DNA from: Spirochaetales bacterium
GTDB lineage: Bacteria > Spirochaetota > Spirochaetia > Treponematales > UBA12059
Reading direction: 5' to 3'
NCBI GenBank assembly: GCA_016926955.1
Contig: JAFGNN010000041.1
Location: forward strand, 1 to 36,669
Length of the DNA: 36,669 nt
The notes beneath the pieces are model-generated. The model was not told the origin of the DNA, searched no databases, and worked only from the letters and a program-made list of their open reading frames with translations. Every line of letters starts with the position of its first letter. The first letter of the stretch is position 1. Position numbers and translations under genes: made by a program. Below, in pieces: positions 29,282 to 33,143 of the stretch.

Positions 29282-29340
29282 TAGATACTTCCGCGAAACT
29301 TCTCATTTTCTCGCGCTTGCCCGACGCGCGCCGGATGTGT

Positions 29341-29531
29341 GTCACGAAGCTTCCGGGTATCCTCCGCCGCCGCGGCGGTGTCACGAAGCTTTCGGGTCCC
29401 CCCGCCACCGCGGCGGTGTCACGAAGCTTCCGGGTCCCCTCGCCACCGCGGCGGTGTCACGAAGCTTCCGGGCTCCCTCGCCACCGCGCTGGTGTCACGA
29501 AGCTTCCGGGTCCCCTCGCCACCGCGGCGCA
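29341..29531. repeat. Minisatellite: five tandem 38-39 bp units
   Basis: Units begin GTCACGAAGC at 29341, 29380, 29418, 29456 and 29494. The first is 39 bp and the others 38 bp, with only a few substitutions. Each holds a GAAGCTTC palindrome (altered to GAAGCTTTC in the second) and a CCACCGCGG-rich half. The array fills most of the gap between ybaK and the trpB promoter; units abut directly with no spacers. Because the unit length is not a multiple of three, all frames read through it without stops, which produces false ORFs. The rest of the gap (29532-29593) shows nothing recognisable. Confidence 0.92.
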
Positions 29532-30097: not shown

Positions 30098-30844
30098 TCA
30101 GGACCCGACCCGCGCCGCGCGTCGGGCGATGCCCAGCGCGCGGAGAGCGCGCCGCACAGCCTTCGCCATGGGCGGCGGCCCCGAAACGAACCAGCGGGTC
30201 GCGGGATCGGCGAGGAAGGCTCCCGAAAGTCGCGCGAGCGACTCCGCGTCGGGTCGCCCGCGCTCCCCGTCCCAGAGCGGATCATGCGTCAGCGCGGCCT
30301 TCCAGGAAAAGCCGGGAAAGGTTCTCGCGTACGCGCCGAAGTCCCGGGAGGGCCCGAGTTCCTCGCGTGTTTTCGCCCACCAGAGCAACAAGGTCGGTCG
30401 AGCGGCATCGGCCCAGGCCAGATGCTCGAGCAGGCCCAGGAACGCGGCGATGCCAAAGCCTCCCGCCACCAGGACGAGGGGACCGCCCGGATCCCGCGAA
30501 CCCAGCCAGGTCGGACCGAAGGGCGCGCCGACCAACGCCGCGCAGTCCGGATCCAGGCCCGACTCGACGGCGGCAACGAAGCGGAGCGTCCAATCGTCCA
30601 CGGCCTTGACCAGGAACTCCATCCGGCCGCGCTCGTACGGAGGCGAGACTACGGGAAACGCGCGAGCCCCGCGCGGAGCCGACGGGGCCACGAGCGCGAG
30701 CATCGCGGACTGACCCGGCGCCCAAGCCGGGAACTCGCCCTCGACCGGCCGCAGCGAAAGGCGCGCGGTGCGGGGTCCCTCCATGAGCGCCCGCGATACG
30801 ACGCATGGAACGCGGGCGGCAACGGAGAGCACCAAGGACAACAT
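30098..30844 (-). CDS. FNR-like FAD/NAD(P)H oxidoreductase
   Basis: 248 residues. The N-terminal half forms a ferredoxin-reductase-type FAD barrel with 'WAPGQSAML' and the flavin motif 'RAFPVVSPPY' (about 60-69). The C-terminal half has a nucleotide-binding 'LVLVAGGFGIAAFLGLLEHL' segment (about 125-144), and ends with 'RWFVSGPPPMAKAVRRAL' near 217-234. It resembles the PyrK / sulfide dehydrogenase beta group, but the C-terminal cysteine cluster for a 2Fe-2S centre is absent, so electrons must go to a separate partner. The ATG overlaps the GH57 stop as TGATG, so it is translationally coupled to a carbohydrate-active protein, an unexpected combination. Substrate and partner unknown. Confidence 0.75.
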   Translation of the reverse strand: MLSLVLSVAARVPCVVSRALMEGPRTARLSLRPVEGEFPAWAPGQSAMLALVAPSAPRGARAFPVVSPPYERGRMEFLVKAVDDWTLRFVAAVESGLDPDCAALVGAPFGPTWLGSRDPGGPLVLVAGGFGIAAFLGLLEHLAWADAARPTLLLWWAKTREELGPSRDFGAYARTFPGFSWKAALTHDPLWDGERGRPDAESLARLSGAFLADPATRWFVSGPPPMAKAVRRALRALGIARRAARVGS

Positions 30845-32439
30845 CAGCGCCTCGGGCGGAACATGCGATAGTTTATGAAGGGGAACAGGTTGTTGCGCTT
30901 CTCGAGGCGGGTTATCCACTCGGTCCCGACCTGGTTGGCGCAGAGCATCTCGTAGATGCGATTGAAATTGGTAACCGCGTCCTCGACCTGCTTGCGGGCG
31001 AAGGAGCTCGACTTGCCGGCGCGCATGAGCAAGGCCCAGTCGGAGCACTGCGCCAGGAGAGTCTCGCGGGCGGCCTGGTTGAGCACGCGCTCCTTGAGGC
31101 CCGACTCGTTCGGGAAGCGCTCCGCCAGCTCGGCCATGCGCTCGGCCACCTTGATGGCGTGGCGGTAGATCCAGTCGTTGGAGCCGTTGAGCCAGACGTC
31201 CGCGTAGCCGCCGTCGCCCCAGGACGAGAACTCGGGCACCGATTCCTGCGAATCGGGGTGGAGCTTCAGGTATTCCTCGAGCGTGACGAATGAGAGCTTC
31301 TTGCCGTCATTGGCGCGACGGAACAGGGCCTCAAGCCAGAGCGGTCCTTCGAACCACCAGTGGCCGAAAAGCTCCGCGTCATAGGGGCAGACCATCAGCG
31401 GCGGACGGTCCAGATGGGGGCCCGCGGCCTCCGCTTGGGCGGAGCGGTCGCGAAGGAAGGCCTCCGCGTGCTCGAAGGCGCGGGTATACGCGGCACTCGG
31501 GTCGTAGGGCCGCTTCTGGTCTGTCTTTCCCGTCACCGCCCAGTACTTGAAACCGGTGAAAATTCGGGTGCGGTCCTCTTCGATGAAGGGAGCGACGTAG
31601 TCCAGTCCCAGGTCGAAGCCGATGTCGCGGTAGAAATCGCGGTAAACGCTGTCCGCGGGGTAGCCCGAGTTCTCTGACCAGACTGCGTCGGTGGAGTCCA
31701 CGTCGCGGATGAAGAACGAAAGTCCGTTCGCAGAGCGCGTCGGCGCGTAGGAGCCGCGCTCCGGCACCGGATCGCCGAGCAGGGCGCCCCGCGTCGAGAC
31801 GACGGTGAACTGGAGGTTGTTGGCCTTCAGCACGTCCTCCGCGCCGGGATACCAGCCGAGCTGGGGCATCCAGAAGCCCGCGGGCAGCTTGCCGAAGGCC
31901 GCGCGGTGTCCGGCCACCGCCGTCTCGACCTGGGCGGGCACCACTTGGCCCACGTCGCGGAAGATGGGCAGGAAGGCGTGGGTGGCGCCGCTCGTCATGA
32001 TGTCGATACGGCCCTTCTTGTAATAGAAGTCGAAGGCCGCCACAAGGTCGCGGCCATAAAGGCCGACGAAGTCGTCGCGGTCCATGCGATAGAGGTTTTC
32101 GTAGAGGCGGGCAAGGTTGTGGAAGGTCGGCTCGCCCGCGGTGCGCTCGAGCTCCCGGCGCGAAAGCTCGAGCTGCTGGTCTAGAAATCCGACGTAGCGT
32201 TCCTTGAGGAGCTCGTCCCCGAGCATGGCTATGAGGGTCGGCGAGAGCACGAGGGTGAAGCGGTACGGAACCGCGTCGGCCTCGAGCCTGCGCATGAGCC
32301 TCAATAGGGGCAGATAGGTCTCGCTCATGGCTTCGAAGAGCCAGCGCTCCTCGAGGAAGCGCGGATAATCGGGCTGCCTGACAAAGGGTAGGTGGGCGTT
32401 GAGCACCAGGGCGATGTAGCCGCTCCGGTCCGCGTTCAT
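30844..32439 (-). CDS. GH57 / DUF1957 branching-enzyme-like protein with nucleophile Glu replaced by Gln
   Basis: 531 residues, full length for the GH57 1,4-alpha-glucan branching enzymes (AmyC, TTHA1902 type). Conserved GH57 regions: region 1 'LNAHLPFVR' (13-21), region 2 'TSGATHAFLP' (149-158), region 3 'GFWMPQLGWYPG' (188-199), region 4 'CPYDAELFGHWWFEG' (351-365) with catalytic Asp354, and region 5 'SSWGDGGYADVWLNG'. The C-terminal helical DUF1957 domain follows. In active enzymes region 3 reads W-x-P-E and the Glu is the nucleophile; here the codon at 31861-31863 is CAG, giving Gln193. Either the protein is a non-catalytic glucan-binding relative or it uses another residue. Its ATG overlaps the DUF4912 gene stop (ATGA). 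Cytoplasmic. Confidence 0.88.
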   Translation of the reverse strand: MNADRSGYIALVLNAHLPFVRQPDYPRFLEERWLFEAMSETYLPLLRLMRRLEADAVPYRFTLVLSPTLIAMLGDELLKERYVGFLDQQLELSRRELERTAGEPTFHNLARLYENLYRMDRDDFVGLYGRDLVAAFDFYYKKGRIDIMTSGATHAFLPIFRDVGQVVPAQVETAVAGHRAAFGKLPAGFWMPQLGWYPGAEDVLKANNLQFTVVSTRGALLGDPVPERGSYAPTRSANGLSFFIRDVDSTDAVWSENSGYPADSVYRDFYRDIGFDLGLDYVAPFIEEDRTRIFTGFKYWAVTGKTDQKRPYDPSAAYTRAFEHAEAFLRDRSAQAEAAGPHLDRPPLMVCPYDAELFGHWWFEGPLWLEALFRRANDGKKLSFVTLEEYLKLHPDSQESVPEFSSWGDGGYADVWLNGSNDWIYRHAIKVAERMAELAERFPNESGLKERVLNQAARETLLAQCSDWALLMRAGKSSSFARKQVEDAVTNFNRIYEMLCANQVGTEWITRLEKRNNLFPFINYRMFRPRR

Positions 32440-33143
32440 CGTGATTCACCTCCGCCGAGTATGCGCGACGGATGCCGCTCGTCCTCGGGCTCAATGCGCA
32501 GGCCTTGGATACCCGAAAGCCGCAGCAGCTCGGCGGTCCTCGCCTCGAGCCCGGAAAGGGGCTTGGAGAGGGAGGCTCGGGGGGTCCTGACCGCGTTCGA
32601 CCTGGCGAGCGCCTTCTGCCGGCCGCCGAGACGCACGCAGATGTCGATGCGGTAGCGCGAATCCTGGTCCGGCAGGTTGAGGTACCACTGGACGTCCTCG
32701 TCACCCACCGCGATGTCGAAGTGGTCTGACGACGAACCTTCTCCACGCGGCTCCTCGACCACGCGGAGGAAGTAGCCCGAGAAGTCAGGGTCGCCTTCGA
32801 AACGGTCTCGGTCCTCGTCCTTTATGTCCCAGTAGGCAAAGGCCCAAGCGGGATCGCGAACCAGCACCTTGATGGCGGTTTCGTTGTAGCGACGCTCGAT
32901 GCAGGGCGCCGCGTCGAGCGATGCGTCGAAGTCGTCGAGTTCGGACCCCGAGTACTTCTTCTCTTCGACGTGGACGGGAGCGTCCCGATCCACGCGGCGA
33001 TCCTCGTGGTCTTCCTCGAAGGCCTCGACGAGGGTCTCCTGGACCACGGGCCGCTCCAGCCCCGGCGGCAGGTCGAGACCCATCTTCTCGGCGAGCGCGT
33101 AGAGCGCTTCCATCGAAAGGTCGTTCAGCTTGTCGGCGTTCAC
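32436..33143 (-). CDS. DUF4912 protein with Rho-N/SAP-like N-terminus
   Basis: 235 residues from a GTG at 33143. Residues 3-40 ('LNDLSMEALYALAEKMGLDLPPGL') look like a helix-extension-helix (Rho-N/SAP-like) motif seen at the start of spirochaete DUF4912 proteins. After a charged linker (45-75) comes the DUF4912 domain: 'NETAIKVLVRDPAWAFAYWDIKDEDRDRF', 'GYFLRVVEE', 'WYLNLPDQDSRYRIDICVR' (about 87-190). The domain resembles a carbohydrate-binding beta-sandwich and its gene regularly neighbours DUF1957. Function unknown; glycogen-related binding is inference. The annotated frame could start at a TTG at 33179, but that TTG belongs to a TTGACA -35 box, so the GTG is preferred. The stop overlaps the GH57 start. 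Confidence 0.75.
   Translation of the reverse strand: MNADKLNDLSMEALYALAEKMGLDLPPGLERPVVQETLVEAFEEDHEDRRVDRDAPVHVEEKKYSGSELDDFDASLDAAPCIERRYNETAIKVLVRDPAWAFAYWDIKDEDRDRFEGDPDFSGYFLRVVEEPRGEGSSSDHFDIAVGDEDVQWYLNLPDQDSRYRIDICVRLGGRQKALARSNAVRTPRASLSKPLSGLEARTAELLRLSGIQGLRIEPEDERHPSRILGGGESR

Follow-up and report, generated by a model that had tools for sequence, protein, structure and literature searches.

What does a bacterium gain from a glycoside hydrolase that has lost its catalytic nucleophile, encoded in a gene that overlaps one for a protein of unknown function on one side and one for a flavoprotein on the other? The question is raised by a 36,669-nucleotide stretch of DNA (the window) from a Spirochaetales bacterium (GenBank assembly GCA_016926955.1, contig JAFGNN010000041.1, positions 1 to 36,669). 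A preliminary description read the three genes, for a DUF4912 protein, a GH57 protein and a ferredoxin-NAD(P) reductase (FNR)-like flavoprotein, as one unit that couples redox state to glycogen binding or storage. We found that DUF4912 and GH57 form an ancient pair and that the flavoprotein stands outside it. We put at about one in two the probability that the pair is a non-catalytic two-protein module of DUF4912 and an AmyC-type GH57 protein, derived from a branching-enzyme module, which serves as a scaffold or occupancy sensor and whose retained task in Spirochaetia is likelier to lie in envelope growth or division than in glycogen turnover.

The locus lies on the minus strand, and positions are those of the whole window. 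Coordinates and Pfam matches bear out the three open reading frames (ORFs), their positions and their family identities as first described:

32436..33143, minus strand: DUF4912 protein, 235 aa, GTG start (PF16258, E 4e-27), with a Rho_N/SAP-like helical N-terminus (residues 1-49), a linker and a fibronectin type III (FN3)-like DUF4912 domain (about residues 88-191)
30844..32439, minus strand: GH57 protein of the AmyC/branching-enzyme type with BE_C, 531 aa (PF03065 and PF09210)
31861..31863, minus strand: codon of Gln193, the GH57 nucleophile position (motif GFWMPQLGWY), computed from the gene start at 32439
31378..31380, minus strand: codon of Asp354, the GH57 acid/base (motif PYDAELFGHWW), computed from the gene start at 32439
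30098..30844, minus strand: FNR-like flavoprotein reductase, 248 aa, with FAD and NAD(P) domains (PF00175, E 8e-8) and no [2Fe-2S]

The DUF4912 and GH57 genes overlap by 4 bp (ATGA), and the GH57 stop and flavoprotein start have one base in common (TGATG). These overlaps had been taken to imply fixed stoichiometry; they are present, but they suggest co-translation of the products and not a fixed ratio between them. Below, genomes, loci, genera and families carry codes (G, L, g and f); G000 is the genome of the window, f2 is Treponemataceae, f22 is a Borrelia-like family, and P0001 and P0002 are the GH57 and DUF4912 proteins. The coded order that holds the window's family is one that we take to be Treponematales.

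The pair is ancient and tightly coupled. Among 248 genomes of the class Spirochaetia, 204 have a relative of GH57 (P0001) and 196 a relative of DUF4912 (P0002). The two genes adjoin in all 81 Spirochaetia loci sampled (61 from 32 families and 20 further Treponemataceae), with a median gap of 9 bp and a gap of at most 20 bp in 61 of them; this half of the unit first proposed thus stands. Outside the phylum, we sampled 80 loci by scanning named genomes with an AmyC-led alignment. About 60 of these have a DUF4912 profile match immediately upstream of GH57, cyanobacterial loci being the main exception, and no DUF4912-GH57 fusion occurred among the 55 loci with a called DUF4912 gene. The synthase gene glgA is found near the pair in 20 of the 80 loci and the glycogen phosphorylase gene glgP in 8, so the ancestral context of the pair was probably alpha-glucan metabolism, in agreement with AmyC being a branching enzyme (PMC6616209). 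Genomes of f22 lack the pair. Two loci of genus g123, from another Spirochaetota class (L263, L264), have DUF4912 with no GH57 gene nearby, and there DUF4912 can evidently act without an adjacent partner.

We next consider the GH57 protein itself. The closest solved structure by sequence is Thermotoga maritima AmyC (2B5D, E 4e-123). The predicted structure (predicted local distance difference test, pLDDT, 89) matches 2B5D with a Z of 48.8 and a root-mean-square deviation (rmsd) of 1.6 over 511 aligned residues at 37% identity, and TT1467 with a Z of 45. Both PF03065 and PF09210 score above cut-off, indicating that the barrel and the BE_C helical domain are present. In the alignment with AmyC, Gln193 takes the place of the nucleophile Glu, and the acid Asp354 is present. 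The absence of a nucleophile is a family trait: all 23 genomes of the window's family have a GH57 relative, the motif is readable in 22, and the position is Gln in 21 and His in 1, with Asp at the acid/base position in every copy examined. Of 97 positions that are at least 95% conserved among intact GH57 relatives, six differ in each of the three family members compared (S64V, E193Q, Y196W, Y480F, R484Q and H488A). According to their PDB titles, E256Q nucleophile mutants of Aquifex aeolicus GH57 were crystallised with maltopentaose. Glucan binding without cleavage, as proposed in the preliminary description, is by this analogy plausible for a Gln193 protein with its acid and most of its groove kept. 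One genome of the family (G421) has a second GH57 gene of the branching-enzyme type (L312, G421:C174:1410-2909), whose product has both catalytic residues and shares 34% identity with the window protein.

Selection on this protein is strong. Between G000 and G089, GH57 is 97% identical and its ratio of non-synonymous to synonymous substitution rates (dN/dS) is 0.035 by NG86 and 0.007 by YN00, compared with 0.053 and 0.010 for trpB; the GH57 gene of the window's family is as constrained as trpB. Catalytically dead GH57 pairs from Treponemataceae gave a dN/dS of 0.02-0.12.

The partner protein scores 95.2 bits against PF16258 (gathering cut-off 29.4). Modelled from 31 sequences (pLDDT 82), it has a confidently predicted helical N-terminus (residues 1-49) and, at residues 88-191, a beta-sandwich resembling fibronectin type III domains (Z 10.4, 92 residues aligned, rmsd 2.8), which dominate the fold matches. 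FN3 domains are typically protein-binding, although a common fold is no proof of function. The core had been put down as a probable carbohydrate-binding domain; it is modelled as FN3-like, and no Pfam carbohydrate-binding module (CBM) family matched the protein. That assignment is not supported, although a CBM of a family outside those listed is conceivable. The nucleic-acid-binding-like N-terminus fared better in homologues than in the window: Rho_N (PF07498) scores above cut-off in three homologues from other phyla (L196, L221, L235), but the N-termini of the window and T. pallidum proteins gave no significant match to it. Some homologues of other phyla end in a Glucodextran_B-like domain that is absent from the window protein. 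Clostridial homologues (L206, L208, L216, L220, L222 and others) have long Lys/Thr-rich, histone-H1-like N-terminal tails, and L209, from another phylum, has a weak HC2 match.

Loss of catalysis is not confined to the window's family. Most Spirochaetia relatives keep both catalytic residues. On a FastTree phylogeny of 123 GH57 proteins, built with the catalytic columns removed, the nucleophile changes state at least 6 times, the acid at least 11 times and overall intactness at least 7 times. The acid has been lost in f15, f30, f33 and f3. In Treponemataceae, both catalytic residues are mostly gone, along with other groove residues; Glu is replaced by Ala, Tyr, Ser, His, Leu or Phe, and Asp by Pro, Ser, Asn, Glu, Tyr or Arg. 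We rejected preferential loss of motif positions in this family, as their mean retention of 0.48 does not differ significantly from the 0.66 of other conserved positions (p = 0.08).

The genome coded G077, presumably that of T. pallidum Nichols, keeps the pair. Its single GH57 gene adjoins a gene for an RRM protein, matching TPANIC_0358 and TPANIC_0356, and the GH57 protein keeps Glu and has Pro at the acid position. TPANIC_0358 appears in a table of the most expressed T. pallidum genes, at 595 fragments per kilobase per million (FPKM) in culture and 260 in rabbit, which points to the culture list (PMC8525777). A structural-modelling study names the protein an alpha-amylase (PMC5956850), a label that Pro at the acid position makes unlikely.

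The neighbourhood of the pair suggests a different setting. We clustered the neighbours of Spirochaetia GH57 genes, confirmed them by Pfam and built profiles from them. Downstream are MraZ, RsmH (MraW), a Mur ligase and MraY, of the division and cell wall (dcw) cluster, and an M23 peptidase is often encoded upstream. In all 30 non-Treponematales families sampled, mraZ or rsmH lies downstream of GH57 on the same strand (50 of the 54 loci with enough sequence), at a median distance of 384 bp from GH57 to the mraZ match, so that the pair heads the dcw cluster there. Neither gene takes this position in any of 25 Treponematales loci, 80 loci of other phyla or 20 of other Spirochaetota classes. Upstream of DUF4912 in L033 and many other Spirochaetia loci is a conserved series of genes for a DUF5711-like protein, an M23 peptidase and a methyltransferase-like protein; other families have a recN-like gene upstream.

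We propose that in the window's family GH57 would hold an alpha-glucan or maltodextrin uncut, with Gln193 as an isosteric Glu-to-Gln trap. DUF4912 would be its dedicated partner or adaptor and would pass the output to another macromolecule, contacting protein through the FN3-like domain and possibly nucleic acid through the Rho_N-like tail. The complex would then be a scaffold or occupancy sensor instead of an enzyme. Less certainly, the task kept across Spirochaetia may lie in envelope growth or division; the dcw position would then make sense, as would the fact that glycogen and catalysis can be dispensed with. A bolder form of this proposal is that the pair is an unrecognised spirochaete component of envelope growth or division, which moved from glycogen metabolism to the start of the dcw cluster by recruitment and is kept in non-catalytic form, T. 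pallidum included (TPANIC_0358 and its neighbour, with the acid/base gone and no recognisable glycogen genes). We offer it tentatively, as possible rather than probable.

Several points weigh against the proposal. No dcw link is left in Treponematales; in the window, too, the locus has pcnB-like and ybaK-like neighbours and no adjoining mraZ, rsmH or mur gene. In 16 Spirochaetia loci (for example, L033, L039, L042 and L045), GH57 and mraZ are separated by a small conserved ORF (about 93 aa) on the opposite strand, so a transcript shared by the pair and the dcw genes is not implied, and gene order is in any case indirect, circumstantial evidence of function. The physical complex of DUF4912 and GH57 is a putative one. 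Branching probably remains the ancestral function, given that most members outside Treponematales look catalytically complete and that glgA and glgP neighbour the pair in other phyla. Finally, glgA and a glgC-like gene in G000 may leave room for a glycogen role in the window's family.

That role is the strongest alternative, although we consider it doubtful: the silenced GH57 and DUF4912 would bind nascent glycogen and steer or protect the synthase product, and the dcw position would be a relic of gene order. Consistent with it, G000 has glgA, a glgC-like gene and a divergent phosphorylase, the groove is mostly kept in the window's family, and glycogen genes accompany some pairs in other phyla. 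Lists of glycogen genes, compared by hand, argue otherwise for the class. The pair is kept in G077, in which GlgA, GlgC and phosphorylase are not recognisable. It is also kept in G084 and G037 (genus g23), where GlgA and phosphorylase are absent and nucleotidyltransferase matches are only weak, and in G036, which lacks GlgA and phosphorylase. GlgA is absent from all seven g23 genomes; the one g23 GH57 protein read (L034) keeps both catalytic residues. No Spirochaetia locus has glgA or glgP closer than about 6 kb, and Treponemataceae keep the pair with the groove destroyed. Because the pair persists without glgA, glgC and glgP and in groove-destroyed proteins, glycogen storage, the role first suggested, cannot be its class-wide function. 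We also considered whether a GH13 GlgB replaces the lost activity and rejected this: of 248 class genomes a single one, G094, passes the TIGR01515 cut-off, and it has no DUF4912 match; partial matches near 200 bits occur in some others. Some Treponemataceae, such as G024 (L164), have glgA, glgC and phosphorylase, no GH57 with both catalytic residues at the locus and no GH13 GlgB above cut-off.

The flavoprotein invites a further alternative, a three-protein complex in which it couples redox state to glycogen binding, and this we consider improbable. The TGATG junction in the window speaks for it, as do the 6 of 23 family genomes, spread over four genera, that have this gene order (G000, G089, G421, G437, G426 and G192). 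However, no such linkage was found in the remaining 17 genomes of the family or at any sampled locus outside it. Gln193 is fixed in genomes with and without the flavoprotein. Between G000 and G089 the flavoprotein is 72% identical, with a dN/dS of 0.30 (NG86) and 0.10 (YN00), about tenfold that of GH57. A conserved three-gene unit is therefore rejected by the neighbourhoods of the 81 class loci and the search of the 23 family genomes, and redox coupling is unsupported. The linkages on which the preliminary description had staked its unit have parted: the flavoprotein is unlinked in most relatives, but DUF4912 and GH57 stay together in all the Spirochaetia loci sampled. The flavoprotein is a later, lineage-specific neighbour outside the conserved pair. 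As first described, it lacks an iron-sulphur centre, since only the NAD-binding domain matched Pfam in this 248 aa protein and no iron-sulphur domain did. In sequence it comes closest to the FAD/NAD parts of MmoC, BenC and NqrF.

It is comparably unlikely that GH57 is still an enzyme, with another residue or a substrate-assisted route replacing the nucleophile, or with a different substrate. Asp354 and most motif residues are kept, and both catalytic residues are present in most Spirochaetia relatives, but a Gln in place of the nucleophile is the usual inactivating substitution, as in the related enzyme whose mutant, judging by its PDB title, was crystallised with substrate, and the acid has also been lost repeatedly in other lineages. 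A vestigial pair in neutral decay, kept by slow loss alone, is very improbable: catalytic residues have eroded several times and the Borrelia-like f22 lacks the pair, yet dN/dS is very low both for the window's family and for the dead Treponemataceae proteins, the pair is retained in the 1.14-Mb G077 genome and TPANIC_0358 is highly expressed.

Scanning the window region for promoters and terminators gave nothing usable above chance. Between the trpB-like and ybaK-like genes (29339-29529), a 38-bp unit, GTGTCACGAAGCTTCCGGGTCCCCTCGCCACCGCGGCG, occurs in five tandem copies with 89% matches.

Together, these observations give DUF4912, a family of unknown function, a dedicated partner, and they describe passage from enzyme to pseudoenzyme several times within one bacterial class under strong selection. 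In Treponematales, annotation of these genes as alpha-amylase (TPANIC_0358, PMC5956850) or branching enzyme is probably mistaken. Should the dcw link prove functional, it would point to a new factor in spirochaete growth, with a gene that is highly expressed in the cultured syphilis agent. Our literature search found no work linking GH57 with dcw or division, and no report of the DUF4912 partnership, the dcw neighbourhood or stepwise GH57 silencing; DUF4912 was named only in an unrelated transcriptome study.

Among known systems, ferredoxin-NAD(P) reductase-like components (AntC, BenC, MmoC) share the NAD-binding domain and general architecture of the flavoprotein, which differs in having no [2Fe-2S], in scoring far below every equivalog cut-off and in overlapping a GH57 gene. 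The window GH57 resembles T. maritima AmyC in its fold over the full length, its BE_C domain and its acid Asp (PMC6616209), and differs in having Gln193 where AmyC has its nucleophile Glu; relative to intact relatives, its C-terminal domain also has R484Q and H488A. Branching-enzyme-type GH57 proteins with incomplete catalytic machinery were noted in 2018 (PMC6037648), and the window protein is like them in being bacterial, of that type and incomplete; 60 such sequences, called GBE-like, have been published. In the parts of the 2018 survey available to us, the coverage is of the sequence group only, and the DUF4912 partner, dcw neighbourhood, repeated losses and purifying selection do not appear. 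For DUF4912 (PF16258) itself, the FN3-like core, the Rho_N-like N-terminus and the partnership with GH57 are described here.

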